The notes under the pieces are model-generated. The model was not told where the DNA came from. It did no database searches and saw only the letters and a list, made by a program, of their open reading frames with translations. Shown one piece after another: positions 2,302-22,893 of a stretch of DNA of 57,270 nucleotides (positions within the stretch are counted from its first letter, which is position 1; each line of letters starts with the position of its first letter). The stretch covers positions 1 through 57,270 of the forward strand of contig PKEU01000060.1 of NCBI GenBank assembly GCA_002919195.1, given 5' to 3'. The DNA comes from a bacterium (lineage in GTDB: Bacteria > Bacillota > Limnochordia > DTU080 > RSA5). The translations under genes were made by a program, and so were the position numbers.

Positions 2302-3584
2302 GCCGAACGCACCTCCAGTGAGTGCACGCCGCAGGCCTTCCCTCTCACGTGGGCCTCAAATTCGTCGGCGAAGTGAGTCAGCACCGACTGCAAAAAGGTG
2401 ATGGAAAAGTCCGAGAGGAGGCAGATGGTCGTGCCGCTCATCTTTTCCTTGAGGCTCCGCAGCACTTCCAGGTCGTGCATGGTGCCCTCACCCCGCTCGA
2501 TGCGGCGCAGGATGCGGGCCGTCCACGCCGTCCCTTCGCGGCACGGCGTGCACTGGCCGCACGACTCATGGGAGAAAAACTCGGCGTAGTAGAGCGCAGT
2601 GCGCACCATGCACACGGTGTTGTCAAAGACGATGACGCCTGCGGTGCCCAGGATCGAACCCGCCGCCGGCACCGAATCGAAGTCGAGGGGGAGGTCAAGG
2701 TGCTCCGGCAAGAGAACCGGCGAGGAAGCCCCGCCCGGCTGAACAGCCTTGAGCGTCCGCCCGGGGAGCAGCCCGCCGGCATGCTCCTCGAGGAGTTCTC
2801 TCAACGTCACACCCAGAGGCAGCTCGTAGTTTCCAGGCCGCCTCACCATGCCGCTGACGGAAAAGATCTTGGTACCCGGGCTCTTTTCCGTGCCAATCGA
2901 CAAAAACCAGTCCGCGCCCCGGTCGACGATAAAAGGAACGTTGCACAAGGTCTCCACGTTGTTGACGACCGTGGGCATCCCATAAAGCCCGGAGACAGCG
3001 GGAAACGGGGGCTTAAGCCGCGGCTCGCCGCGGCCGCCCTCCAGGGAGCTCAAAAGCCCCGTCTCTTCGCCGCAAATGTAGGCGCCCGCCCCGCGATGGA
3101 CGGTGATCTCTTGCGAAAATCCGGTGCCAAGGATATTGTCGCCCACGTACCCCTTGGCCTTGGCCTGGGCCAGGGCTTTCACGAGGACGTCGTAGCCCCG
3201 CTTAAACTCACCCCGGATGTAGATAAACGACTGCGCGGCCTTGGTAGCGTACGCCGCGAGCAAAATCCCCTCGATCAGGAGGTGGGGGTTGTACTCGATC
3301 AACATCTTGTTGTTAAACGTGCCTGGCTCGCTCTCGTCGGCGTTGCAGCAGAGGTAGCGGGGACGGCCGTCATCAGGGAGAAAGCCCCACTTGACGCCCG
3401 CGGGGAAGCCCGCGCCGCCGCGGCCGCGCAAGTTGGCCTTTTTCACCTCGGCGTGCACGTCTTCGGGCGTCATCTGCTTGAGCGCTTTGCGAAGCGCCTG
3501 ATAACCACCCTGCTTTTCGTACACTTCTATATCGACGAGATCGAGCTCCCCGATCCCCTTGGTCAATACCGGCTCAAATGCCAC
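2298..3584 (-). CDS. nuoF: NADH-quinone oxidoreductase subunit F
   Basis: This 428-residue subunit binds NADH and FMN and passes electrons to the Fe-S chain of complex I. Visible signatures are GRGGAGFPAGVKWGF (NADH/FMN site), CNADESEPGTFNNK, the GEETGLLSSLEGG loop, and near the C-terminus SCGQCTPCREGT, which provides cysteines for the N3 [4Fe-4S] cluster. Length matches the family. The GTG start at 3584 has a GGGGGG ribosome-binding site seven bases upstream. It sits 14 bases after nuoE and overlaps nuoG by four bases, so E, F and G form one translational block (the NADH dehydrogenase module). Confidence 0.97.
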   Translation of the reverse strand: MAFEPVLTKGIGELDLVDIEVYEKQGGYQALRKALKQMTPEDVHAEVKKANLRGRGGAGFPAGVKWGFLPDDGRPRYLCCNADESEPGTFNNKMLIEYNPHLLIEGILLAAYATKAAQSFIYIRGEFKRGYDVLVKALAQAKAKGYVGDNILGTGFSQEITVHRGAGAYICGEETGLLSSLEGGRGEPRLKPPFPAVSGLYGMPTVVNNVETLCNVPFIVDRGADWFLSIGTEKSPGTKIFSVSGMVRRPGNYELPLGVTLRELLEEHAGGLLPGRTLKAVQPGGASSPVLLPEHLDLPLDFDSVPAAGSILGTAGVIVFDNTVCMVRTALYYAEFFSHESCGQCTPCREGTAWTARILRRIERGEGTMHDLEVLRSLKEKMSGTTICLLSDFSITFLQSVLTHFADEFEAHVRGKACGVHSLEVRSA

Positions 3585-3598
3585 GGGTGAACCCCCCG

Positions 3599-4138
3599 TC
3601 AGAGGGCCTTGACCGGCGGAATTCCAAACCGATCGGAAATGGCCGCCGGGTCCTCGCCCTTCTTGATCAGCTCGATGATTTCATCGGCTCGTTCAAACGT
3701 CACGTTGCCGCAGTACTCCAAGTTGACCTGCAGCGCGGGAGCGCCGTCGCAGGCGGCGATGCACTCCCCGGTGACCAGCAAGGTGATCAACCCGTCGGGG
3801 GTCGTCTCCCCCACCTTGATCCCCAAGCGCTGCTCAAGGTACCGGGTGAGTTCGGCCGCTCCCGAGAGCCCGCAGGCGATGTTACCGCAGACCGTGATCA
3901 CGTACTTGCCCATGGGCCTGCGATAAAAGAGCGAGTAAAAGGAGCAGACGGATTCGACCAGCGACTTGGACACACCCAAGATTTCGGCGATCGCTTCCAC
4001 GTCTTCATCGGCTATCCAGCCACGCTCTTCTTGAGCGAGATGCAAAAGCGGCATCATCGCCGAACGCTTTTGAGGATAGCGGCCGATAATCTCCTCGATG
4101 TCTTGTTTGCGCTTCTCCACCCACGCGGGAGTGCTCAT
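3599..4138 (-). CDS. nuoE: NADH-quinone oxidoreductase subunit E
   Basis: This is a thioredoxin-fold [2Fe-2S] subunit (179 aa) of the NADH module. The four cluster ligands appear as CGNIAC and CIAAC, with the usual spacing between the pairs. The N-terminal helical region (KRSAMMPLLHLAQEERGW) is typical of the family. The ATG at 4138 overlaps the nuoD stop as ATGA. The presence of E, F and G shows that this complex I is the 14-subunit NADH-using type rather than the 11-subunit ferredoxin/F420 type, although nuoH-N lie outside the window. Confidence 0.96.
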   Translation of the reverse strand: MSTPAWVEKRKQDIEEIIGRYPQKRSAMMPLLHLAQEERGWIADEDVEAIAEILGVSKSLVESVCSFYSLFYRRPMGKYVITVCGNIACGLSGAAELTRYLEQRLGIKVGETTPDGLITLLVTGECIAACDGAPALQVNLEYCGNVTFERADEIIELIKKGEDPAAISDRFGIPPVKAL

Positions 4139-5373
4139 CGGTCAACCTCCCCAAAGACGGGATCGACGGTGGCCACCACGGCGACCAAGTCAGCGACCAG
4201 TTCGCCGCGCACCATTTCCGGAATGGCGAACACGTTGTAAAAGGCCGGTGGCCGCGTCCTCACCCGCCACGGCTTGTTTTTGCCGTTGGAGACCACATAG
4301 TAGCCGATCTCCCCCCGCGGGCTTTCGATGCTGACATAGACCTCGCCCTCGGGCACGTCAAAACCGTACGAGACCAACTTGAAGTGGTGGATGAGCGCCT
4401 CCATGTTTTCCCGCACTTCGTGCTTGGGCGGCCGGACGATCTTGCGGTCGTCGATCTGCCACGGCCCCTCGGGAAGCCGCTGGAGCGCCTGCACACAGAT
4501 CTTGTGGCTTTCGCGAAGCTCTTGCATCCGGACCAGGTAGCGGTCGTAACAGTCGCCGTTGGTCCCAAGCGGCACCTTAAAGTCAAATTCTTCGTACCCG
4601 CAGTACGGAAAGGCCTTGCGCACGTCATAATCGATGCCGCAAGCCCTTAAATTGGGCCCCGTGAGCCCGTAGGCGATGGCCTTGTCCTTGCTGATCGCGC
4701 CGATCCCCTTGAGACGGTCCAGAAAAATCGGGTTTTCGTCGAGAATCGCGTGCAGCTCGTCGAGCCGCTTAGGGAACCGGTCGAGAAACTCCTGAACCAT
4801 CTGGACGAAGTTATCGGGAACGTCGTTGGCCAACCCGCCGATCCGGATGTAGCTGGGATTCATGCGGGCGCCGGTCACTTCTTCAAAGATGTCGAGGATG
4901 GCCTCGCGAATATCAAAGGCATAGAAGAAGCCACTCATCATGCCCATGTCAAGCACGGTGGTCCCAAGCCACACAAGGTGGCTCGCGATCCTTTGTAACT
5001 CGACCATCAGCACCCGGATGTAGCGGGCCCTTTCAGGCACTTCGATGCCGAGAAGCTTTTCCACCGCGAGGACGTAAGCCAAGTTATTTGAAAGCGGCGA
5101 GAGGTAGTCCATCCGGTCGATTACCGTGATGGCCTGCTGCCAGGTAAGATTCTCCGCCGTCTTTTCAATGCCCGTGTGCAAAAAGCCGATCTCCGGGACG
5201 CAATTGACCACCCGCTCCCCTTCCAGCTCGAGGATCAGGCGGAGCACGCCGTGGGTGCTCGGGTGGTGCGGGCCCACGCTGATGATCATGCGATCGCCTT
5301 CTGCCGCCTCCACCCGGTATCCCCGGGGATCGGGATGTTCCAAGGGAAGACCTGCCGGATCCAGTTTGGCCAT
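4135..5373 (-). CDS. nuoD: NADH-quinone oxidoreductase subunit D
   Basis: This is the 49-kDa subunit, which lines the quinone pocket (412 aa from the chosen start). Family signatures include VGPHHPSTHGVLRL near the N-terminus, GFLHTGIEKTAENL, and the terminal FxEVDR-type ending. An open frame extends upstream to 5502, but that part lies inside nuoC. The ATG at 5373 (MAKLDPAG) follows the nuoC stop by nine bases with an AGGTAGGG ribosome-binding site, so it is taken as the start. The stop overlaps nuoE. The position between C and E is the standard nuo order. Confidence 0.96.
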   Translation of the reverse strand: MAKLDPAGLPLEHPDPRGYRVEAAEGDRMIISVGPHHPSTHGVLRLILELEGERVVNCVPEIGFLHTGIEKTAENLTWQQAITVIDRMDYLSPLSNNLAYVLAVEKLLGIEVPERARYIRVLMVELQRIASHLVWLGTTVLDMGMMSGFFYAFDIREAILDIFEEVTGARMNPSYIRIGGLANDVPDNFVQMVQEFLDRFPKRLDELHAILDENPIFLDRLKGIGAISKDKAIAYGLTGPNLRACGIDYDVRKAFPYCGYEEFDFKVPLGTNGDCYDRYLVRMQELRESHKICVQALQRLPEGPWQIDDRKIVRPPKHEVRENMEALIHHFKLVSYGFDVPEGEVYVSIESPRGEIGYYVVSNGKNKPWRVRTRPPAFYNVFAIPEMVRGELVADLVAVVATVDPVFGEVDR

Positions 5374-5903: not shown

Positions 5904-6378
5904 GCGCCATCACACCACCCTTCGCGCGCCCCTGCGCGATCGACTCCTTCAACTTCATGATGGCGTGGAGCACCGCATCGGGCGTCGGCGGGCAGCCCGG
6001 CACGTACACGTCGACAGGGAGGACCCGATCGACGCCCTGAACAATGGCGTAGTTGTCAAAGATGCCACCACTCGAGGCGCAGGCTCCCATCGCGATGACC
6101 CACTTGGGCTCCGGCATCTGCTGGTACACCTGCTGGATGACCGGGACCATCTTGAGCGACAACCTGCCCGAGACGATCATGAGGTCCGCCTGGCGCGGCG
6201 ACGCCCGCATCACCTCCGAACCAAAGCGGGCAGCATCATAACGCGGCCCCACCAGGTTCATCATCTCGATCGCGCAACACGCCAGGCCAAAGGTGAGCGG
6301 CCAAATCGATGACTTTTGCGCCCAGCGCACAAACTTATCGATCGTCGTGACAAAAAACTGGCCATTGGTCATTTCCAC
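5893..6378 (-). CDS. nuoB: NADH-quinone oxidoreductase subunit B
   Basis: NuoB carries the last iron-sulfur cluster (N2) of complex I. Motifs are the adjacent cysteines in [25 protein letters not shown] and [12 protein letters not shown], which supply the four ligands. Several starts are possible. GTG at 6378 has GGGGGGA six bases upstream; ATG at 6372 overlaps the nuoA stop as ATGA; a frame reaching 6399 also exists but lies inside nuoA. Either of the first two gives a protein of about 160 residues, the normal size. It acts at the junction between the hydrophilic arm and the membrane arm. Confidence 0.95.
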
Positions 6379-6737
6379 GACAATCCCCCCTTTTTCCACT
6401 CGTACGCGTACCCGACGCCCAATACCGCCACATAGATCGCCATGGCTCCTAGCGCATAAGCGCCGAGCCCCGCATTCTTAAACTCTTTGAGCAACACCGC
6501 CCAGGGATAAAATGACGCAGCCTCGACGTCAAAGATGACAAAGAGCATCGCGACGTGATAGAAGCTCACCGGAAAACGACCGTGGAGGGGCGGTGTCGGA
6601 AAACCGCTTTCGTAAGGCAGATACTTTTGCGGTTCGTGTTGTTTGGGGCCGAGGTAGGATGCGGCGAGTGAAAGTAAGATGGGGACCGCCAGAGCAACGA
6701 CGAGGTAGATCAGGAGAGGCAAATAAACTTCGCCCAT
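6369..6737 (-). CDS. nuoA: NADH-quinone oxidoreductase subunit A
   Basis: This 122-aa membrane subunit is the first gene of the nuo operon. Three hydrophobic segments are visible (about residues 5-25, 60-80 and 90-110), together with the family motif [11 protein letters not shown] and the acidic [14 protein letters not shown] segment of the second transmembrane helix. The ATG at 6737 has AGGAGG eight bases upstream. A promoter with near-consensus elements lies about 45-70 bases upstream, so transcription of A through G probably begins here. Confidence 0.95.
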
Positions 6738-6770
6738 GGGCTGTTCCTCCTGATGGAGCCCTTAAAAAAT

Positions 6771-6825
6771 TTTGTGCTCATGATATCATACGCCTTTTGA
6801 TTTGTAAAGTGAACACGAGCACAAA
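6771..6825. repeat. Inverted repeat flanking the nuo promoter
   Basis: TTTGTGCTCATG at 6771-6782 is the inverted copy of CACGAGCACAAA at 6814-6825, with 11 of 12 positions pairing. The left arm covers the -10 box and probable start point; the right arm lies just upstream of the -35 box. The arm centres are 43 bases apart, about four helical turns. This is what a repressor binding two sites, or a dimer bridging the promoter, would use, but no regulator is identified. Confidence 0.6.
6780..6808 (-). promoter_or_regulatory. Sigma-A promoter of the nuo operon
   Basis: On the minus strand a -35 TTTACA (6803-6808) and a -10 TATCAT (6780-6785) are separated by 17 bases. The predicted transcription start near 6773 leaves a leader of about 36 bases before nuoA, including its AGGAGG site. 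The promoter is framed by the inverted repeat annotated separately. Matches are five of six and five of six to consensus, with ideal spacing. Confidence 0.75.
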
Positions 6826-6854
6826 GTCATGCTTCTCCCCAGCGTATGCCCTGT

Positions 6855-7085
6855 TTAGGTCCCTTCCCCAGGCGGTTTTCGCAGCACGTTCCATTCTTTG
6901 AGCCGCTCTGTAAACATATCCAGGTCTCCATATTTAGCCAAGAGGACCCTTTGTTCCCTCCTCGCGAGCCACAAATGACGCAAAAGGTACCAGCACAGCC
7001 ACGGAAAGAGCGTCACTCCTACAAGGAACGCCAAAGCGATCGCAACCTTCAACGGCCAGAGAAGCCCTCCCTCATCGCGTCTCAC
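6855..7085 (-). CDS. Small single-span membrane protein, hypothetical
   Basis: This 76-residue frame begins with GTGA overlapping the stop of the M20 peptidase gene, which argues for coupled translation. One hydrophobic segment (about residues 12-34, LKVAIALAFLVGVTLFPWLC) is followed by a basic patch (LARREQR) and a charged tail. It ends shortly before the inverted repeat upstream of nuoA. I recognise no family. Its tight overlap and the plausible membrane topology make it likely real, but a spurious frame in GC-rich DNA is not excluded. Confidence 0.5.
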   Translation of the reverse strand: MRRDEGGLLWPLKVAIALAFLVGVTLFPWLCWYLLRHLWLARREQRVLLAKYGDLDMFTERLKEWNVLRKPPGEGT

Positions 7086-8224
7086 GGGGATGTGGCCAAT
7101 GCGAGCACCATCTCAGTCAACTTGACCAGCTCTTCTACCGGCATGCTCTCTCGGAAGCTGTGAATCGCCTCAAAACCCACACCCAAGACGGCAGTGGGAA
7201 GCCCCTTCGCGTTAAAGATATTCGCATCGCTGCCTCCACCCGTCGCCTTGACCACCGGGGTTCTCCCGATCTTGCGCGCCGCAGCCTTGGCCCGCCGGAT
7301 CGGCTCAGACTCTTCATCCAGCCGAAATCCCTCATAGGCCAAGCGCACATCCCACGTCGCCCGGCCGCCGCTGGCGGCCGCCGCCCCCTCAATGGCCCGG
7401 GTCATGTTTTGGACCTGCCTCTTCGCCTTTTCGGGATCGAGGCTGCGGGCTTCGGCCCGGATCTCGGCTCGCTCCGGCACAACGTTGGTGGGTCCGCCCC
7501 CAGCGATATAACCTACGTTGGCGGTGGTCTCAAGATCGATCCGGCCCAGGTCCATTCGGCTCACCGCCTGCGCTGCGATCTTGATCGCGTTGAGCCCGCG
7601 CTCTGGCTCGATGCCGGCGTGGGCCGCCCGGCCGAAAAACTGGGCCTCGATAATGTAATGCGTGGGCGCCCGCGCGATGATGGTGCCCACCGGCCCCTCG
7701 GCATCGAGGACAAAGCCCACTTTGCTCCGGAGCGCCTCCATGTCGACTTGGGAGGCGCCCACAAGCCCGATCTCTTCACCCACGGTGAGCACCAGCTCCA
7801 GCGGCGCGTGTGAGGCCTCCGTCTCCTGCAACACCCGGCACGCCTCGATGATTGCCGCAAGCCCCGCCGCGTCATCCGCGCCCAAAATGGTGCTGCCATC
7901 GCTTTGAATCCGGCCGTTGACCAGCACGGGCCTTACCCCGACGCCCCCTTCCACCCGGTCGAGGTGCGCCGAAAACATCACCGGCTCCCAATGCTCGCCC
8001 GCGCCCCGGCCCGGTTTGGTCGCGATGATATTGCCCACCTCTCCACCGAGGCGCCGGCCCGCGTCGTCTTCACGGACGTGAAAACCGAGGGCGACGAGAT
8101 GCTCCCACACAATTTCGAAGACGGGCCTCTCTCTCAGCGGAGCGCTGTCCGCCCGGCATAATTGCATCAAAAGGTCGACAAGCCTTTCCTGCTGCACCGC
8201 GCCGACGACGTCTATGGCGCTCAT
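7082..8224 (-). CDS. M20 family metallopeptidase (peptidase T-like)
   Basis: This 380-residue zinc peptidase resembles PepT/YqjE-type tripeptidases of the M20 family. Visible metal-binding and catalytic motifs are FSAHLDRV (His-x-Asp), ILGADDAAGLAA (bridging Asp), TVGEEIGLVGA (catalytic Glu and a ligand), VLDAEGPVG, and a C-terminal GGGSDANIFNAKG. The dimerisation domain starts around HAGIEPERG. The chosen start is the ATG at 8224 (MSAIDVVG) with AGAGGT seven bases upstream; a longer frame to 8254 lacks a good site. Its job is probably cytoplasmic peptide hydrolysis; substrate unknown. It is followed by an overlapping small membrane protein. Confidence 0.85.
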   Translation of the reverse strand: MSAIDVVGAVQQERLVDLLMQLCRADSAPLRERPVFEIVWEHLVALGFHVREDDAGRRLGGEVGNIIATKPGRGAGEHWEPVMFSAHLDRVEGGVGVRPVLVNGRIQSDGSTILGADDAAGLAAIIEACRVLQETEASHAPLELVLTVGEEIGLVGASQVDMEALRSKVGFVLDAEGPVGTIIARAPTHYIIEAQFFGRAAHAGIEPERGLNAIKIAAQAVSRMDLGRIDLETTANVGYIAGGGPTNVVPERAEIRAEARSLDPEKAKRQVQNMTRAIEGAAAASGGRATWDVRLAYEGFRLDEESEPIRRAKAAARKIGRTPVVKATGGGSDANIFNAKGLPTAVLGVGFEAIHSFRESMPVEELVKLTEMVLALATSP

Positions 8225-13434: not shown

Positions 13435-15063
13435 TTATCGGATCACCTCCCATCGCTCGCCCTCATAAGGCGTTAGGATCACATCAAGACCAGTGAGGCT
13501 CTGCCCTTTCCTGATGGCGACCGGGCCGGCCTCGCCAAAGTAGTCGCCGGGCGATACCTCTCCGTCGTCGTCGACGTCGATCCAACCGACGAGGCTCCAC
13601 CGCCCCTCGGGCGCGTGAGCCAACGAGAAGCGGCCGCCGAGCCCCGGTTGGGCCTCAACTTTAACCCACAGGCGGCTTCCTTCGCGTTGGACAAGCATCA
13701 CCCGGGGGATGCCGCTTGCTACCGCTCCCAGGGCGTCGAGGCGGCCGTATCCGTAGGAGGCGTCCCATCCCGGCCGGTCGTCCGGCCGCCTCGCCGTCAT
13801 GTGCAGGAGGGCCCGCACCTTTTCGGGATCTTGGGGAAAGCCGGCGCTCAGCATCAGGGCGATGACGCCCGAGACGTGCGGCGCGGCAAACGAAGTGCCG
13901 ATCTTGCAGATGAGGCTGTCACCGGTACCAAGGATCCAGATCCCAGCGGAGCACGAACCATCCACCTCAGATCCCCCCGGAGCTACGAGGTCGAGATCGG
14001 CTCCTTTGGCGGAGTAGGGAGTCACCTGCAAGTGGCGGTCAATGGCTCCGACTGCGATCACGCCCGGGTGGCTGGCCGGGCAAACGACGGGGCCGCCGCT
14101 GTTACCTGCGGCCGCCACCACGATCACACCGGCGCTCACGGCACGCGCCAGCACGTCATCGATGATGGAAGGACACTGGGGATCCGAGCCCACCTGGAGG
14201 CTGAGGTTGATGATGTGGGCGCCGCGTTCGACCGCTTTCTGGATGCCGCTGGCTACGGTGTCAGCCCTGGCGCCGGGAAACCCCACGACTCGGATGGGCA
14301 TCAGCCGCACCCCGGGAGCCACACCCCGGATCCCGTAACCGTTGCCTGCGATCGCGCCGATCACCCCGGCGACGCCGGTGCCATGCCAGTCGGGATCGAT
14401 CCCCTTTCGCTCGCCGTAACCGTAGTCCCCTCCGCTCTCCGCGTCCCACCCGGTGACCCAGAGGCGCGGATCAGCCAGATCGGGCTGGCTGAAGTCGATG
14501 GCGGTGTCCGCCACGGCGACGATGATTTCGGCCGCGCCGGCCGCCGAGGCCCTTTCCCACGCCTCTTGCGCCCGGATGGCCTCGAGCGCCCACTGCTCGC
14601 CGTAGTAAGGGTCGGCAAGGCCAGCGAGCGGCGTCACCGGCCCGTTTTCCTCGACCGAGATGACGCCCTTTTCTCCGGCCAGCAGCGCTAAGGCCGCCTC
14701 GGCAGGCCTTCTTTGGGGATCCCGGACCACGTGATACCCGTCAACGGCTTCTCTGACGTACGCGAAACCCAACCGCTCGACCGTCCGCCTCACCTCGGCG
14801 GTGTCGATCGCGCGCGAAAACGTGACGATGTACTCGTACGTAGGCTGGCGGGACCCAGGATCAATGGACGATAGGACGGGTTGTCCGAAGGGGACGCTTT
14901 TCGTCCCCAAACGCAGATTGAGAGGGGTGACAGGCAAGCTCTCGGGAGACGGGGTGACGATCTTGACGGCCCCCGAAAGCGTCGAGCTCTGTTTGGAACT
15001 TAGACCCAAGCAACCCGAAAGAAGCAGCAGCACGGGGATGAGACCGGCCAGCGCCCGCCTCAA
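13435..15063 (-). CDS. Subtilisin-like serine protease, lipoprotein
   Basis: A 542-residue S8-family protease. A short signal peptide ends in the lipobox LLSGC (Cys18), so it should be membrane-anchored outside the cytoplasm. An I9-like propeptide (about 75-140, TYEYIVTFSRAI...) precedes the catalytic domain, with Asp186 (VAVADTAID), His227 (DWHGTGVAG), Asn321 (AAAGNSGG) and Ser391 (GTSFAAPHVSG). The C-terminal domain contains an EF-hand-like calcium loop, DVDDDGEVSPGD. The TTG at 15063 overlaps the moaD-moaE stop as TTGA and yields a normal signal peptide; the frame remains open to 15114. Confidence 0.9.
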   Translation of the reverse strand: MRRALAGLIPVLLLLSGCLGLSSKQSSTLSGAVKIVTPSPESLPVTPLNLRLGTKSVPFGQPVLSSIDPGSRQPTYEYIVTFSRAIDTAEVRRTVERLGFAYVREAVDGYHVVRDPQRRPAEAALALLAGEKGVISVEENGPVTPLAGLADPYYGEQWALEAIRAQEAWERASAAGAAEIIVAVADTAIDFSQPDLADPRLWVTGWDAESGGDYGYGERKGIDPDWHGTGVAGVIGAIAGNGYGIRGVAPGVRLMPIRVVGFPGARADTVASGIQKAVERGAHIINLSLQVGSDPQCPSIIDDVLARAVSAGVIVVAAAGNSGGPVVCPASHPGVIAVGAIDRHLQVTPYSAKGADLDLVAPGGSEVDGSCSAGIWILGTGDSLICKIGTSFAAPHVSGVIALMLSAGFPQDPEKVRALLHMTARRPDDRPGWDASYGYGRLDALGAVASGIPRVMLVQREGSRLWVKVEAQPGLGGRFSLAHAPEGRWSLVGWIDVDDDGEVSPGDYFGEAGPVAIRKGQSLTGLDVILTPYEGERWEVIR

Positions 15064-15737
15064 GCGTCGATCCCCACCCAGCTCTCGCCGTCTTCCCACA
15101 CTTCCTTTTTCCAAATCGGCACCCGTTCTTTAAGCGTGTCGATGCCGTAGCGCGCTGCTTGAAAGGCCGCATCCCGGTGAGGCGTGGCCACCGCGACGAT
15201 CACGCTGGTTTCGCCGATACCCAGCTCCCCGATGCGATGCCCAATGGCGACGCGGGCATCCGGCCAGCGGCTTTCGATTTCTTGAGCGATCTTGAGCATT
15301 TCGCGCTCGGCCATCTCCCGGTACGCGTCGTAATTCAAAAAGACAGTGCGCTTATCGCCGGTGTACTCCCGTACGACGCCGGCGAAAAGGACCACCGCCC
15401 CGCACCGGGGGGAAAGGACCCGCTTTTGGTACTCGTCGGCCGAAAGGGGTTCCGTCGTCACTTTGACAAACGGCCCCCCATCCTCCGCGGCCAGGCCTCC
15501 CGAGACCGGCGGGATGAGAGCCGCTTCATCTCCAGGACTCAGCCGGCGTTCCCACGAGACATACTCCTGGTTGACCGCCAGCTTCAGCGATCGCTCGAGA
15601 GGAGCCATCGCCGGGTACTTCTGAAAAAGGGTGTGGAGAAGGTCACGGCCCGTCGCGTTTTCTGGAAGTTCCAGCTCGATCTCACGCGCTTTGGCGATGT
15701 CGGCCATGACCGCGAACAGGCGAACCTTGATCCTCAT
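15060..15737 (-). CDS. MoaD-MoaE fusion, molybdopterin synthase
   Basis: One 225-residue frame carries both subunits of molybdopterin synthase. Residues 1-81 are the ubiquitin-like MoaD ending in PPVSGG (Gly80-Gly81), and residues about 90-225 are MoaE, with the active-site HR (GHRIGELG) and Lys residues (TLKERVPIWKKEVW). MoaD normally needs a free C-terminal Gly-Gly to carry the thiocarboxylate, so the fusion should be cleaved after Gly81. Such fusions are known in mycobacteria as MoaX. The start is ATG 15737 with AAAGGT nine bases upstream. The downstream protease overlaps it by four bases. No other molybdenum-cofactor gene is in the window. Confidence 0.9.
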   Translation of the reverse strand: MRIKVRLFAVMADIAKAREIELELPENATGRDLLHTLFQKYPAMAPLERSLKLAVNQEYVSWERRLSPGDEAALIPPVSGGLAAEDGGPFVKVTTEPLSADEYQKRVLSPRCGAVVLFAGVVREYTGDKRTVFLNYDAYREMAEREMLKIAQEIESRWPDARVAIGHRIGELGIGETSVIVAVATPHRDAAFQAARYGIDTLKERVPIWKKEVWEDGESWVGIDA

Positions 15738-15766: not shown

Positions 15767-16420
15767 CTACGCCTTCCGGCTCTTTTTGGCAGCAGCGACC
15801 GCGGCCACCAAGGCCTTCGCCCGGCCGGTCACCTGGTGCAATCTCCCCGTCTTGACATCGTCGCCCAGCAAACCGCCGCCGGCACCGACAGCGATGGCCC
15901 CCGCTTCGATGAAGGCCCCGGCGTTGTCCGGGCCGATGCCGCCGGTTGGGATCACAGGGATGTGGGGCAAAGGCGCCCGCACTTGGCGGATAAACGCGGG
16001 ACCCAGCACGTTGGCGGGAAAGAGCTTGACCGCCTGGGCGCCCGCCTCAACCGCCTTGACCATCTCCGTCGGCGTCATGACGCCGGGGATCGCCAAGCGC
16101 CCGTGGCGATTGGCCACCTCGATCACTTTCTCATTGAGGTTGGGAGCAAACAAGAAGGCGGCCCCCGACTGGATCGCGGCGACGGCCGCCGCGGGGTCGA
16201 GGACGGTTCCCGCTCCGATCAACGCTTTTCCTTGCATGGAGCTGGCAAGTCTTTCAATGGTCTCGTAGGCTCCGGGGGTGTCGACGGTCACTTCCAGGAC
16301 CGTGATGCCCCCCTCATATAAAGCAGTAGCGGCCTCGAGCGCGGCACGGGTCTCAAGACCCCGGATGACGGCAATCACGCCGCATCGTTCGATGGCTTGC
16401 AGGGACTCGACGGCACTCAT
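15767..16420 (-). CDS. eda: KDPG/KHG aldolase
   Basis: A 217-residue class I aldolase of the Entner-Doudoroff and glyoxylate-related pathways, which cleaves 2-keto-3-deoxy-6-phosphogluconate to pyruvate and glyceraldehyde-3-phosphate. Family motifs are GVIAVIRG, LEVTVDTPGA (catalytic Glu), GAGTVLDP, PGVMTPTE, VKLFPAN (Schiff-base Lys) and PTGGIGPDN. The ATG at 16420 has AGGAGG upstream. The partner dehydratase or kinase is not in the window, so the exact substrate is uncertain. It is divergent from the JAMM-like gene and 29 bases from the MoaD-MoaE gene. Confidence 0.9.
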   Translation of the reverse strand: MSAVESLQAIERCGVIAVIRGLETRAALEAATALYEGGITVLEVTVDTPGAYETIERLASSMQGKALIGAGTVLDPAAAVAAIQSGAAFLFAPNLNEKVIEVANRHGRLAIPGVMTPTEMVKAVEAGAQAVKLFPANVLGPAFIRQVRAPLPHIPVIPTGGIGPDNAGAFIEAGAIAVGAGGGLLGDDVKTGRLHQVTGRAKALVAAVAAAKKSRKA

Positions 16421-16548
16421 CCTAGGACCTCCTATCGGCCAAGAAACGCCTTTCCAGGCGAGCTACTTTTTCTTCCCCTGCCAGGAATCCTGCGGCCCTA
16501 GGCGGAAGTATCCTTCAGCGCCAGGCCGCGTGCGAAGAGGTGCTGACA

Positions 16549-17676
16549 ATGCCTGACACACCCTGGTACCAAGTGGGGCCCGCCGCCGACGCGTGGCGGC
16601 TCGGCACAGAGCCCGCCCAGGCGACCGCCATCGGATCGCCCGAGAGCGAACCGCTGGCGATTTACCTCGGCAGCCGCGCCATGGAGCTCCTCGACCGTCA
16701 CATCGCACAACGTCCCAGCGCGCCCCTGGCCGGGCTCTTGCTGGGCTACCCCTTGGAAGGCCCGCACCGGCGTTTTCTTTTGGTGACTGACCTCATCGCC
16801 TTTGAGCTCTCACCGGACGACGATGTACGGTTTACCTCGTCCCTTTTTGAAGAGCTCGAACTCGCCTGGCGGGAGCGTGAGGACGGCTGTTCTGTCGTGG
16901 GGTGGTTCCACGCTGCCCCCGAGCGGGGTGTCGCGCTTTCGAGCTTTCACCAGTTCAATCACCACCGCTACTTCCCAAAGCCGTGGCAAGTCGTGTTGAT
17001 CGTCGACACGAGCCGGCACGCCTCGCTCCTTTACCGGTGGGAAGGGGAAGTCCTCGTCCCTTGCGACAGCTTTTACTACTGGAATATGGAGCTGGAACCC
17101 CTGGCTACCCTGCTCGAGCCGCCGGTTATTGTCAGCGGCGCCGCATTTACGGAGACGGCCGCAACGACGTCCGATGCGGAGAAAAGGCGCCTCGCGGCTT
17201 TTCCCTGGTGGCTTTGGCTGTTGATGTTGCTCGCCGCCTACGCGCTGATCCCCCAGGCGCCCGGAAGCCTCTCTTGGGTGCGCCGTCAAGTTCAGACCGA
17301 ATCGCGCCGGTTGGCGGAGCTTCAGTCTGGACTCGCCGCTTTGGCCGGTGAAGAGCGGCGCCTGCAGCAAGAGCTGCAGGCGACAACCAACCGCGCGGCG
17401 ATCCCGGCGCCCTCCACGGAGACAGCCCGCAGCGCATCGCGAGCGCTTCCCGCCCTTGACCTCGGGGGAAATGACGCGCCCGTGACCCCGACCGGCGGCG
17501 ATACGAGATCGACGGGTTCGCGGGATTATGTCATCCAGCCTGGAGACACCATGTGGTCGATCAGCAGGACGCTTCTGGGCGACCCTCGGGCCTTTCGTGA
17601 GCTGGCTGAAGCCAACCAGATCGAAGATCCCAACATCATCTACCCAGGTCAACGCCTTACGGTTCCCGAGGAATAA
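16549..17676 (+). CDS. JAMM/MPN-like domain, TM helix, coiled coil and LysM fusion
   Basis: This 375-residue protein has an unusual architecture. Residues about 38-165 look like an MPN/JAB domain: GLLLGYPLEG, then VVGWFHAAPERGVALSSFH and QVVLIVD. The JAMM motif H-x-H-x7-S-x2-D is present in position but reads His121-Ala-Ala123-x7-Ser131-x2-His134, so two metal ligands are missing. A transmembrane helix follows (about 219-235), then a Glu/Gln/Arg-rich coiled coil (about 245-283), a Pro/Ser/Thr linker, and a LysM domain (327-373, IQPGDTMWSI) presumably outside. The start is ATG 16549 with AGAGGT seven bases upstream. The topology suggests a cytoplasmic sensor or binding domain linked to the wall. 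Confidence 0.75.
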   Translation: MPDTPWYQVGPAADAWRLGTEPAQATAIGSPESEPLAIYLGSRAMELLDRHIAQRPSAPLAGLLLGYPLEGPHRRFLLVTDLIAFELSPDDDVRFTSSLFEELELAWREREDGCSVVGWFHAAPERGVALSSFHQFNHHRYFPKPWQVVLIVDTSRHASLLYRWEGEVLVPCDSFYYWNMELEPLATLLEPPVIVSGAAFTETAATTSDAEKRRLAAFPWWLWLLMLLAAYALIPQAPGSLSWVRRQVQTESRRLAELQSGLAALAGEERRLQQELQATTNRAAIPAPSTETARSASRALPALDLGGNDAPVTPTGGDTRSTGSRDYVIQPGDTMWSISRTLLGDPRAFRELAEANQIEDPNIIYPGQRLTVPEE

Positions 17677-17695
17677 GCCTTACGCGGCCGGACCA

Positions 17696-18265
17696 TCACT
17701 TAGCCGCCTGGACGACACCGGTCTCGTGGAGAAGACTCGCACGAGTGAGGGGCCAAAAGCGGAGAATCGCCCTGCCGACGATCAGTTTGCGCGGGACGTA
17801 GCCGACCAAGGGGCTGCGGCTGTCTTGCGAGTTGATGCGGTTGTCGCCCAGGACAAAGTAGTGATCCTCGGGCACGACGCCCGAGGTAAAGCGGCTCAAA
17901 GTGGGCGAGCTGGTGTAGGACTCCTCTAAGGCGACGCCGTTGATGTACACCCTCCCGCCCCTGATCTCGACGAGATCGCCGGGAAGGCCGATCACCCGCT
18001 TGATGAAATGATGGCTCGGGTCGGCTGGATAGCGAAAGACGATGATCTCGCCCCGTTGGGGATCGCGAAAGCGGTAAGTCAGCTTGTCGACCAGCAGCCT
18101 TTCTCCCGACCGGAGGGTGGGCATCATCGAAGGGCCGTCAACGGTAAAAGACCGGGCGATAAAGACCATGATGAAAACGGCGAGGAGCGCGGCTCCTCCT
18201 ACCGTCTCGAGGTACTCTCGCCAGAGAGGTTTGGTGTAAGTAGGTTTGGGTGGTGTGACGGCCAC
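17696..18265 (-). CDS. lepB: Signal peptidase I
   Basis: A 189-residue membrane protease that removes signal peptides from exported proteins. One N-terminal transmembrane helix (about 20-40) precedes the catalytic Ser in GPSMMPTL and the Lys in FIKRVIGLPGD; the box GDNRINSQDSR is also typical. Size fits the single-span Firmicutes type. The frame is open to 18490, but GTG 18265 with GAGGGA six bases upstream gives the usual N-terminus, and the terminator of the upstream gene lies beyond it. It is convergent with the JAMM-LysM gene (19-base gap). Confidence 0.92.
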   Translation of the reverse strand: MAVTPPKPTYTKPLWREYLETVGGAALLAVFIMVFIARSFTVDGPSMMPTLRSGERLLVDKLTYRFRDPQRGEIIVFRYPADPSHHFIKRVIGLPGDLVEIRGGRVYINGVALEESYTSSPTLSRFTSGVVPEDHYFVLGDNRINSQDSRSPLVGYVPRKLIVGRAILRFWPLTRASLLHETGVVQAAK

Positions 18266-18332
18266 AGATCTTCCCTCGCCTGACAGGGCATGCAGCTTTT
18301 GATAAGCCTTCGCTAGCTTTCTTTGGCAACAG

Positions 18333-18369
18333 AAAAAAATCCTGCTCCGGCAGGGCGCCGAGAGCAGGA
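18333..18369 (-). terminator. Rho-independent terminator after the YpiB-like gene
   Basis: On the minus strand an 8-bp stem (TCCTGCTC at 18340-18347 with GAGCAGGA at 18362-18369) is followed by seven T residues (18333-18339). It lies about 30 bases after the stop of the YpiB-like gene and upstream of lepB, so it separates the two transcription units. Confidence 0.85.
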
Positions 18370-18398
18370 CGAAAACCGCGCCAGATCTAGGGTTTACA

Positions 18399-19001
18399 TT
18401 AAAGATCCCAGAGGCAACGGCGAGAGACTTCGAGGTACAACGGGGCGATGCGCTCAAAGGTCTCCCGATCGCGAGCCGCCAAGGCTGCATCGATTTGCTC
18501 TCGAAGCGAGATTGTGAGCAACACCAAGTCGACTTGCTCGCGGACGATCTCCTCGATCATGGCCTCGATGCTCTCCTTGGCGTCGGGGCGCATGGGGAGC
18601 GCCGGGTTGGGCTCGACGATCTCTTCATACCATGCAGGGGTCGGACCCGCAAAAGAGAAGACGACGTACAGGCGGCCACGAAACTGCTGGAGCGGTTTGA
18701 TGGCCTCCATGGGCTCGTTGATGCAAAGCGAACAATCACGCCGTGTATGCCGGACCAAGCGGCCGTTGACGATCGAGACCTCTTCCCGCTGGTGGGCGCC
18801 GAGCTCCAGTTCAAATCCCACGCGGGGGCTGCCAAGTTCGGAGATCAACATGGTGTTGGGGAGAAACTCCCTGCTTTGCACAAAAGTCAACCGGGGAAGC
18901 AATTCTTTATTTTCGGCGAGAAACTGCAGAAGGTACTTACTCATCGGATGTTTGAGAGGAGCCCGGCTAAACTGAAGGAGCGCTTCCGCCTTTCGTTGCA
19001 T
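18399..19001 (-). CDS. UPF0302/YpiB-like protein with IDEAL-type C-terminus
   Basis: The 200-residue protein resembles the YpiB (UPF0302) family of Bacillota. The N-terminal part (about 10-60) shows the pattern of a helical domain followed by FVQSREFLPNTMLIS. The C-terminal segment LREQIDAALAARDRETF matches the short IDEAL domain pattern (Ile-Asp-x-Ala-Leu...Asp...Phe). YpiB of Bacillus is implicated in cytochrome bc1/menaquinol reductase and lipopolysaccharide-assembly-factor turnover contexts, but no function is settled. The assignment rests on pattern only. The ATG at 19001 has a modest GGGGTGA site. A strong terminator follows. Confidence 0.6.
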   Translation of the reverse strand: MQRKAEALLQFSRAPLKHPMSKYLLQFLAENKELLPRLTFVQSREFLPNTMLISELGSPRVGFELELGAHQREEVSIVNGRLVRHTRRDCSLCINEPMEAIKPLQQFRGRLYVVFSFAGPTPAWYEEIVEPNPALPMRPDAKESIEAMIEEIVREQVDLVLLTISLREQIDAALAARDRETFERIAPLYLEVSRRCLWDL

Positions 19002-19929: not shown

Positions 19930-20064
19930 GCCTCCAAGACCCCACACGCCCTCCTTTCGAAACTCCTCGAGGGAGCCCTCGCAGCCGGGTTTTGAAACCG
20001 CAGGATTTTCGAGCTTGAACTGCGAAAACTTCCTGTACTTATAATTTTAGGAGGTGCCCTATTG

Positions 20065-21381
20065 GTGCGCTGGAAGTGGATCGTCGTCGTCACTATGCTC
20101 TTTTCCCTCCTCTTGACGCTGCCGTCCGCAGCCCAGCAGACCGTCGTCACATATTGGACCTTTGAGCCCCGCCTTACCGAGCAGTTGATTGAAAAGTTTC
20201 ACGATCTTTATCCTGACATCCGAGTCGAAGTTGTCCCGATGGAGTTTCAGGACCTTCACGAGAAGTTGATCGTGGCACTGGCCGCCGGCGGCGCGCCGGA
20301 TCTCGCCATGGTCGAAATCCAGGAAATCGGCCGGATGGTCAACGAAGCCGGGCCCGTCCTCCAAGACTTTTTAGCCGCGCCCTTTAACGCTGGTCAGTAT
20401 GAGAAAGACTTCGTCCCCTACAAGTGGCGCCAGGGACTCCATAACGGCCGCCTGGTCGCCTTTCCGTGGGATATTGGACCGGCGGGCTTGTTTTACCGCC
20501 GTTCCATTTTCGAAGAGCGAGGATTTGACTCGAGGCCCGAAGCCATGTACGAAAGCCTGATGACGTGGGACGACTTTATCGAAGCGGGCCGCAAGGTGTA
20601 TCTCGATCGTGACGGCGACGGGGTCCCCGAGCAGTTCATCATCGGCGACGCCCGGGAAGTCTCGAAGTTTGCCATTGAGCAAGTCGGCATCCCGATCATC
20701 GATGAAGAGAATGTCGTCCACTTGGACGATCCCCGCATTATCGAAGCGGTGCAAATCGGGCGGACGATCCGGGAGCTCGATTTGGACGGCATCGCCCGCA
20801 TCAATTACAAGTGGAGCGATCAGTGGTACAGCAGCTTCCCCAGCTCGCAAGCTGCTACCGAATTGGCGGGATCGTGGTTTCACGGCACTCTGGCGGAGGT
20901 GGCGCCTGAGACGGCGGGCGACTGGGGCGTGATTCCCGTTCCCGGCGGACCCTACCAGGTCAATCAGGGCGGCTCGTTTATGGTCATGCCGGCCGCGAGC
21001 CGCAACAAGGAGGCCGCTTGGAAGCTGCTGGAGTTCCTCTTGATCAATGAGGAGTCTCAGCTCCACTACACCAACGAGCACGGCACCTTCTCGGCCTATA
21101 TGCCGGTTTGGGATGACCCGTCCCTCGACCAGCCGGTCGACTTTTTCGCGGGCCAGCCGGTGGCGCGGATGTTCCTGCGGATCGCTGAGGCCATTCCGCC
21201 GGTTTACGTCCACCCGCTCCAGAAAGAGATCGCCAACCTCCTCAACGATACCGAGCAAAACGGGTGGAGAGGGTATGTTTCCAAGGTGTACTTCGGCGAC
21301 ATGCCGGCCAACACCGCTTTCGCGGAAGCCGCCCGCGAACTGCGGGCCATTGTGGCGGATTGGCTGGCCCAGCGGAGGTAA
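20065..21381 (+). CDS. ABC transporter solute-binding protein, family 1 (copy A)
   Basis: A 438-residue carbohydrate-type (MalE-like) binding protein. The signal peptide (about 1-23) ends in SAAQQ with no lipobox Cys, so it should be a soluble periplasmic protein rather than a lipoprotein. The core shows VTYWTFEPRLTEQLIEKFH and APDLAMVEIQEIG, and a calcium-type loop DRDGDGVPEQF. The copy B gene downstream has GTGCG at exactly the same distance from AGGAGGTG, so GTG 20065 is preferred over TTG 20062. No permease or ATPase gene is adjacent; partners must be elsewhere. A terminator follows. Confidence 0.88.
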   Translation: MRWKWIVVVTMLFSLLLTLPSAAQQTVVTYWTFEPRLTEQLIEKFHDLYPDIRVEVVPMEFQDLHEKLIVALAAGGAPDLAMVEIQEIGRMVNEAGPVLQDFLAAPFNAGQYEKDFVPYKWRQGLHNGRLVAFPWDIGPAGLFYRRSIFEERGFDSRPEAMYESLMTWDDFIEAGRKVYLDRDGDGVPEQFIIGDAREVSKFAIEQVGIPIIDEENVVHLDDPRIIEAVQIGRTIRELDLDGIARINYKWSDQWYSSFPSSQAATELAGSWFHGTLAEVAPETAGDWGVIPVPGGPYQVNQGGSFMVMPAASRNKEAAWKLLEFLLINEESQLHYTNEHGTFSAYMPVWDDPSLDQPVDFFAGQPVARMFLRIAEAIPPVYVHPLQKEIANLLNDTEQNGWRGYVSKVYFGDMPANTAFAEAARELRAIVADWLAQRR

Positions 21382-21444: not shown

Positions 21445-21579
21445 GTGGGCGAACGGCCGCCCGGCGTGGTCACAAACCGTGCCATGTTCCTTCGTCCTGT
21501 CCCCTCTTTTCCATAGCAGGAGTTTGGAATTTTAAGATAGAAGTTTCTTTCACTCGTTAATTTAGGAGGTGTGGTAATC

Positions 21580-22893
21580 GTGCGTTTGAGATCGATTATT
21601 GCAGCATCTTTAGTCTTGTTGCTCCTTGCGTCGGTGTCGGCTGCGGCCCAGCAAAAGGTGACTTACTGGACCTTTTCGCCTCGTCTCACCGAAAAGCTGA
21701 TCGACAAGTTTCACGACCTCTACCCCGACATCCAAGTCGAAGTCGTCCCCATGGAGTTTTGGGACCTACACGAAAAGCTCATGGTCTCGCTGGCGGCCGG
21801 GGGGGCTCCTGACCTCGCTATGGTCGAGATTCAATTGATCGGCCAGATGGTCAACAAGGCTGGCCCCTTGCTCCAAGACTTCTTAGCCGCGCCCTTTAAC
21901 GCTGGTCAGTATGAGAAAGACTTCGTCCCCTACAAATGGCGCCAGGGGCTCTATAACGGGCGCCTGGTCGCTTTCCCGTGGGATATCGCGCCGGCAGGCC
22001 TCTTTTATCGCCGTTCCATCTTCCAGGAAAGAGGGTTTGACGCAAGGCCCGAGGCCATGTACGAAAACCTGATGACGTGGGACGACTTTATCGAGGCCGG
22101 CCGCAAAATTTACCTGGATCGCGACGGGGACGGCGTGCCGGAGCAGTTTATCATCGGCGATGCCCGGGAAGTCTCTCGTTTCGCGATCGAGCAGGTGGGC
22201 GTCCCGATCATCGATGAAGAAAACGTGGTCCACGTGGACGATCCTCGTTTCATCGAAGCGGTGCAAATCGGGCGGACCATTCGTGAGCTCGATCTAGACG
22301 GCATCGCTCGCATCAATTACAAGTGGAGCGACCAGTGGTACAGCAGTTTCTCCAGCGCGCAAACCGCCACGGAATTGGCTGGCTCGTGGTTTCACGGGAC
22401 GCTCGCGGAGATAGCTCCTGACACTGCGGGCGACTGGGGCGTGATTCCCGTTCCCGGCGGACCCAACCAAGTCAACCAGGGCGGTTCGTTTATCGTGATG
22501 TCGGCCGCGAGCCCCAATAAAGAGGCAGCATGGAAGCTCCTGGAGTTCCTCTTGATCAATGAGGAATCCCAGCTCCATTACACCAATGAGCACGGCACCT
22601 TCTCAGCCTATATGCCGGTTTGGGAGGACCCCTCTCTCGATCAGCCTGTCGACTTCTTCGCAGGCCAACCGGTGGCGAGGATGTTCCTCCGGATCGCGGC
22701 GGCGATCCCGCCGGTTTACATCCACCCGCTGCAGCAGGAGATCAGCAACGTGCTCCACGACACCGAGCAAAACGGGTGGAGCGGCTACATCTCCAAGGTG
22801 TACTTCGGCGACATCCCGGCCAACACCGCCTTTACTGAAGCCGCCCGAGAGCTGCGGGCCATTGTGGCGGATTGGCTGGCCCAGCAGAGGTAG
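21580..22893 (+). CDS. ABC transporter solute-binding protein, family 1 (copy B)
   Basis: A 437-residue close paralogue of the preceding gene (estimated near 85-90% identical by eye over the mature part; not computed). The signal peptide MRLRSIIAASLVLLLLASVS... ends in AAAQQ, again without a lipobox Cys. Differences cluster in the signal peptide and in scattered surface-like positions; the calcium-type loop DRDGDGVPEQF is retained. The start GTG 21580 lies nine bases after GGAGGT and aligns with copy A. It has its own terminator and no permease beside it. Different ligand range or dosage are possible reasons for two copies. Confidence 0.88.
   Translation: MRLRSIIAASLVLLLLASVSAAAQQKVTYWTFSPRLTEKLIDKFHDLYPDIQVEVVPMEFWDLHEKLMVSLAAGGAPDLAMVEIQLIGQMVNKAGPLLQDFLAAPFNAGQYEKDFVPYKWRQGLYNGRLVAFPWDIAPAGLFYRRSIFQERGFDARPEAMYENLMTWDDFIEAGRKIYLDRDGDGVPEQFIIGDAREVSRFAIEQVGVPIIDEENVVHVDDPRFIEAVQIGRTIRELDLDGIARINYKWSDQWYSSFSSAQTATELAGSWFHGTLAEIAPDTAGDWGVIPVPGGPNQVNQGGSFIVMSAASPNKEAAWKLLEFLLINEESQLHYTNEHGTFSAYMPVWEDPSLDQPVDFFAGQPVARMFLRIAAAIPPVYIHPLQQEISNVLHDTEQNGWSGYISKVYFGDIPANTAFTEAARELRAIVADWLAQQR

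Follow-up and report, generated by a model that had tools for sequence, protein, structure and literature searches.

What might a bacterium do with an MPN domain whose JAMM metal site is broken and which is joined, through a transmembrane (TM) helix, to a LysM domain? The question is raised by a gene at positions 16549 to 17676 (+ strand) of the window, meaning the whole 57,270-nucleotide stretch of DNA that was analyzed. Its open reading frame starts with ATG, has an AGAGGTG element just ahead, and encodes 375 residues, and its start codon is matched in the alignment by that of a relative with 53% full-length identity. Together, the reading frame and the full-length alignment of relatives give an MPN domain, a TM helix, a long helix or linker, and a LysM domain, in that order. 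A promoter scan of positions 16380 to 17760 returned no sigma-70-type site. Drawing on computed results for fold, architecture, intact-site relatives, repeated loss, and purifying selection, we read the product as a bitopic, wall-tethered protein of the JAMM family that has probably turned into a non-catalytic binding platform (at a rough probability of 0.6).

The MPN/JAMM-fold domain spans residues 27 to 182 (positions 16627 to 17094, + strand), where a profile of the relatives matches. An AlphaFold2 model built from 32 family sequences had a mean pLDDT of 84.8, with ten-residue blocks of the MPN domain mostly at 93 to 98; beyond this domain, it showed a helix across the membrane, a further helix, a low-confidence stretch, and a confident LysM domain. 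Foldseek hits against the PDB were dominated by MPN proteins, namely, the Rpn11-Rpn8 pair, BRCC36-KIAA0157, CSN5, eIF3h, and Caldiarchaeum Rpn11, with a probability of 1.00 to Rpn11, Rpn8, and BRCC36 and TM-scores of up to about 0.69 over MPN-only chains. Furthermore, the family profile, which involves no structure model, matched the Rpn11 chains of Caldiarchaeum (2.1e-14) and yeast (4.5e-13). On its own, the window protein scored 15 bits against Pfam JAB (PF01398), short of the gathering cutoff of 22.5, and 22 of the 32 family members matched JAB individually at an E value of ≤0.01. A preliminary description, made from the sequence of this locus, had assigned an MPN domain and called for a structure prediction. 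That prediction returned the MPN fold, and, with profile and model agreeing, we regard the predicted fold of the window protein as secure.

The single TM helix lies at residues ~217 to 235 (positions 17197 to 17253, + strand; mean Kyte-Doolittle hydropathy, 1.86). The LysM domain at residues 327 to 373 (positions 17527 to 17667, + strand) matched Pfam PF01476 at an E value of 5.2e-10 and 39.5 bits, above the curated cutoff of 20.9, and the two features bear out the earlier claim of a TM helix joined to LysM. Between them, the secondary structure of the AlphaFold2 model places a long helix, possibly a coiled coil, at residues 241 to 282 (positions 17269 to 17394, + strand). The coiled coil proposed earlier thus stands as a predicted long helix of this lineage but is not shared family-wide; in many relatives, the same place in the alignment is taken by a Pro-rich linker. 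A match to DUF2868 at residues 215 to 298 was below the cutoff, occurred in 1 of 32 members, and spanned both the TM helix and the coil, and it was taken as spurious.

Flanking charges were used to predict topology. Across 52 members, the mean number of Lys/Arg is 3.4 in the 15 residues preceding the TM helix and 1.7 in those following it; the excess is N-terminal in 33 members and C-terminal in 2, with a tie in 17. Given the positive-inside rule, this bias therefore predicts a cytoplasmic MPN domain and a LysM domain outside, the same orientation that had been proposed from the one protein. The linker from the TM helix to LysM measures 41 to 112 residues in these members. Bitopic LysM proteins of Bacillota have a cytoplasmic N terminus, a TM helix, a linker, and a LysM domain outside; the window protein has the same layout, with an MPN domain as its cytoplasmic part instead.

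JAMM enzymes are reported to use the arrangement EXnHS/THX7SXXD (PMC300881). Where a JAMM/MPN+ protein has Glu plus HxHx7SxxD, the window protein reads P-H-A-S-H. Pro59 (positions 16723 to 16725, + strand) stands in the alignment column of the catalytic Glu of the ExxG element, and the motif H121-x-A123-x7-S131-x2-H134 (positions 16909 to 16950, + strand) has Ala123 for the second His and His134 for Asp, with His121 and Ser131 kept. The preliminary description had read this motif exactly, at its canonical spacing, and was right that two metal ligands are gone; it missed the loss of the Glu, which brings the count of altered catalytic residues to three of four. Chance does not explain the spacing, because some 50 homologues can be aligned along the full length of the protein, most of them with the canonical motif. 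Against a non-catalytic reading, His121 and His134, the two His residues left in the motif, could still bind metal.

In eukaryotes, MPN- scaffold subunits (Rpn8, CSN6, KIAA0157/Abraxas, and eIF3 subunits) are non-catalytic partners. Like them, the window protein combines an MPN fold with a broken metal site; unlike them, it is bacterial, membrane spanning, and LysM fused, and its inactivation appears to have arisen separately within its own family. Conversely, Rpn11-like JAMM/MPN+ metalloproteases (yeast Rpn11; Caldiarchaeum Rpn11, PDB 6fjv/6fnn) have their fold in common with the family and their full E/HxH/S/D site in common with its intact members, whereas the window protein lacks the Glu, one His, and the Asp, and the family has a TM helix and LysM in addition. 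A further point against the non-catalytic reading is that eIF3f, an MPN protein placed among those without a full site, is reportedly active as a deubiquitinase (PMC2990700).

The architecture was not recognized in the preliminary description, and a search of open-licence papers, rather than of a domain-architecture database, likewise gave no description of a JAMM or Mov34 domain with a LysM domain. Prokaryotic JAB/JAMM domains have been described as intracellular (PMC3482391). Provisionally, then, the MPN-TM-LysM family is apparently undescribed; the new part is an architectural variant, and the known part is the MPN superfamily. Distribution searches covered the Bacillota. Relatives occur, nearly always in single copy, in 44 of the 73 genomes of the window genome's class, and 32 of 399 sampled genomes of the phylum matched the MPN profile, several with LysM lying outside the class. 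The MPN-TM-LysM architecture recurs in several other Bacillota families, and LysM is present in all 32 aligned members. The full JAMM site (E/H/H/S or T/D) is found in 34 of 52 LysM-bearing members, including members of families f9, f7, and f11 and the out-of-class family f36, and at least one of the five positions is changed in the other 18. The initial picture of a degenerate MPN-LysM protein is therefore correct about the lost site but not in treating the protein as singular: the family is broad and its majority form is JAMM intact, and the presumed binding-scaffold state would be derived, reached several times. A plasmid search with an intact member as the query returned no match. Proteins of family f65 (L103 to L106) have an N-terminal JAMM-type domain and a hydrophobic helix at the extreme C terminus, without LysM; this form is possibly tail-anchored, so JAMM domains may be tethered to membranes more widely.

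We compared site states on a tree whose alignment excluded the motif columns; its deep branches are poorly separated, and several long branches meet. The order of the window genome (f1 and f2) forms one clade, starred on the tree, at 98/98. Its f1 half, made up of the window protein and L009, reads P-H-A-S-H, and its f2 half reads E-C-H-S-D, E-L-H-T-D, or P-V-R-A-D; other lineages show AHRSE, ERQGD, PARTD, KRNDD, and QHRSD. Family f1 keeps the first His without the second, and two genomes of the sister family f2 (L010 and L011) show the reverse. Because these losses are complementary, the common ancestor would have had both residues and the losses would have been separate, assuming that lost ligands are not regained. 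On that assumption, the site was probably inactivated at least twice within the window's order, from an intact ancestor. Parsimony gives at least seven changes of site state on the sample, a count that is rough because of the branching problems noted above and that does not by itself give direction.

A changed site could mean that LysM wall anchoring is the working part of the protein and that the MPN domain is decaying. Pairwise dN/dS of the MPN part (Nei-Gojobori) was 0.21 between the window protein and L009, with dS near saturation, and 0.30 and 0.31 in two further degenerate pairs, compared with 0.04 to 0.15 in intact pairs, with dS saturated in two of these; the partly degenerate pair L010/L011 gave 0.14, with dS saturated. 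Degenerate MPN domains thus evolve faster than intact ones, and their branches on the tree are long, both as decay would have it. However, their dN/dS values are well below 1, and each of the three degenerate pairs shows tighter constraint on the MPN part than on the protein overall. The inactivated MPN domains are still under purifying selection, with somewhat relaxed constraint, a pattern that points to a non-catalytic role rather than a vestige. The high-confidence AlphaFold2 prediction of the MPN fold also speaks against decay, as does the finding of no relative with TM and LysM but without MPN at the locus (G004 is a C-terminal match only, without synteny placement), and we consider a vestige unlikely. 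Nor do we find it probable that the protein is still an enzyme, carrying out a different hydrolysis at an altered metal site formed by His121, His134, and another residue. The two f1 genomes, whose MPN domains are 57% identical, both retain His121 along with His134, so that the altered site appears stable, which favors such an enzyme. Yet the water-activating Glu is Pro59 in both genomes and one metal-binding His is Ala, and quite different residues are lost in other lineages, a pattern better explained by loss than by a single new chemistry.

At the loci examined, no partner gene conserved across all families was found, and neighbors differ between families. In the window, the gene is flanked by the divergent eda (KDPG/KHG aldolase; positions 15767 to 16420, − strand; Pfam, cluster 48) and the convergent lepB (signal peptidase I, S26; positions 17696 to 18490, − strand), behind which lies the gene for a UPF0302 protein (positions 18399 to 19001, − strand), the last two placed by Pfam and synteny. 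Conservation of lepB and eda had been singled out as a check; lepB keeps its tail-to-tail position in five families (f1, f2, f14, f15, and f16), mostly with the UPF0302 gene behind it, but eda lies beside the gene only in f1 and f2 relatives. An operon with either was ruled out, since lepB is convergent and eda divergent, and the lepB-UPF0302 order is absent in f9. There, the gene is mostly preceded by a glutaminase gene (with a 15-bp gap in L078), with GGDEF, engB, and lon upstream (engB and lon identified by eye). In intact-site members of f9 (L073, L078, L130 to L138, and others), it is mostly followed by an unannotated gene of ~150 amino acids (cluster 8; no Pfam match in L078), and the glutaminase, MPN-LysM, and ~150-amino-acid genes form a possible operon. 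Neighbors in f36, read from the sequence by eye, resemble an ECF-type transporter and superoxide dismutase. Elsewhere in the window, two tandem solute-binding-protein-like genes (positions 20062 to 21381 and 21571 to 22893, + strand) encode products with 89% identity over 414 amino acids, suggesting a recent duplication.

A survey of E1/E2/Ubl operons and phage JAB-NlpC proteins, in which the word LysM is absent, describes prokaryotic JABs that have the JAB domain in common with this family (PMC1779556). LysM-fused members differ from these JABs in having no such operon at the loci examined, where their neighbors included no E1, E2, or ubiquitin-like gene; the window neighbors are eda, lepB, and UPF0302, with moaD-moaE two genes away. 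E1-like ThiF was seen only beside MPN relatives without LysM. These relatives (L119, L121, and L122, in G172, G307, and G158) lie near ThiF, an FHA-like protein, and a trypsin-like protease, the last two identified by eye.

The MoaD-MoaE fusion near the gene (ThiS plus MoaE by Pfam; positions 15060 to 15737, − strand) raises the idea that MoaD was once released by ancestral JAMMs of the family and is now bound, but not cleaved, by the dead form. In favor of this idea, a MoaD-MoaE fusion is a substrate of DRJAMM (PMC8832034), MoaD-MoaE-kinase fusions adjoin the gene in G071 and G072, and moaD lies three genes away in G066. Besides the window, the loci with moaD or moaD-moaE near the gene include L068, L071, and L072, the families concerned being f1, f15, and f16. 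Nevertheless, the window domain lacks the catalytic residues, and its genome has soluble intact-motif JAMMs, to which no link of the MPN-LysM protein was found. Moreover, the large f9 group has no moa neighbor and the proximity is possibly inherited gene order, and we judge MoaD handling very unlikely. The kinase fusions each occupy one open reading frame (L071, positions 3116 to 4507, + strand; L072, positions 6006 to 7577, − strand) in two genomes of one genus; the Pfam domains of the former (ThiS, MoaE, HisKA_3, and HATPase_c) make an unusual fusion of molybdopterin synthase and sensor kinase. More improbable still is a SafA-like sporulation role, in which LysM would place the protein at the forespore or coat. 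The LysM domain does resemble the SafA type (E value of 3.1e-10, below the model's cutoff), and SpoIVA occurs in 67 of the 73 genomes of the class. However, four genomes that gave no SpoIVA match (G019, G020, G021, and G055) encode an intact-site protein, and the protein is absent from many SpoIVA-positive genomes, a distribution without the expected co-occurrence that largely refutes an obligate sporulation role.

We favor the reading of a wall-tethered, non-catalytic binding platform. The C-terminal LysM would bind peptidoglycan on the outer side, and one TM helix is predicted to cross the inner membrane, leaving the N-terminal MPN domain in the cytoplasm. The earliest members of the family were most likely JAMM metallo-(iso)peptidases tethered to the membrane and wall, and its intact relatives may have this activity. 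The window lineage has lost two metal ligands as well as the catalytic Glu but kept the fold, most likely yielding a binding platform that would hold a partner at the inner membrane face, where the wall attaches. Plausible partners are another MPN domain or a ubiquitin-like (beta-grasp) protein, held by its C-terminal tail. Binding may be coupled to the state of the wall, including wall sensing of the kind suggested in the preliminary description. More tentatively, the family might be one of wall-tethered transmembrane JAMMs in which a cytoplasmic domain for ubiquitin-type (de)conjugation is coupled to peptidoglycan binding and in which proteases have repeatedly become pseudo-protease receptors. 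The iRhoms, derived from rhomboids, are a parallel for this change.

Altogether, a JAB/JAMM domain tied to the cell wall across the membrane, in a Bacillota family with both active-looking and independently inactivated members, would provide a natural comparison for studying the role of a bacterial JAMM at the membrane. It would also show enzymes turning repeatedly into pseudoenzymes in a setting other than the eukaryotic proteasome, signalosome, and eIF3.
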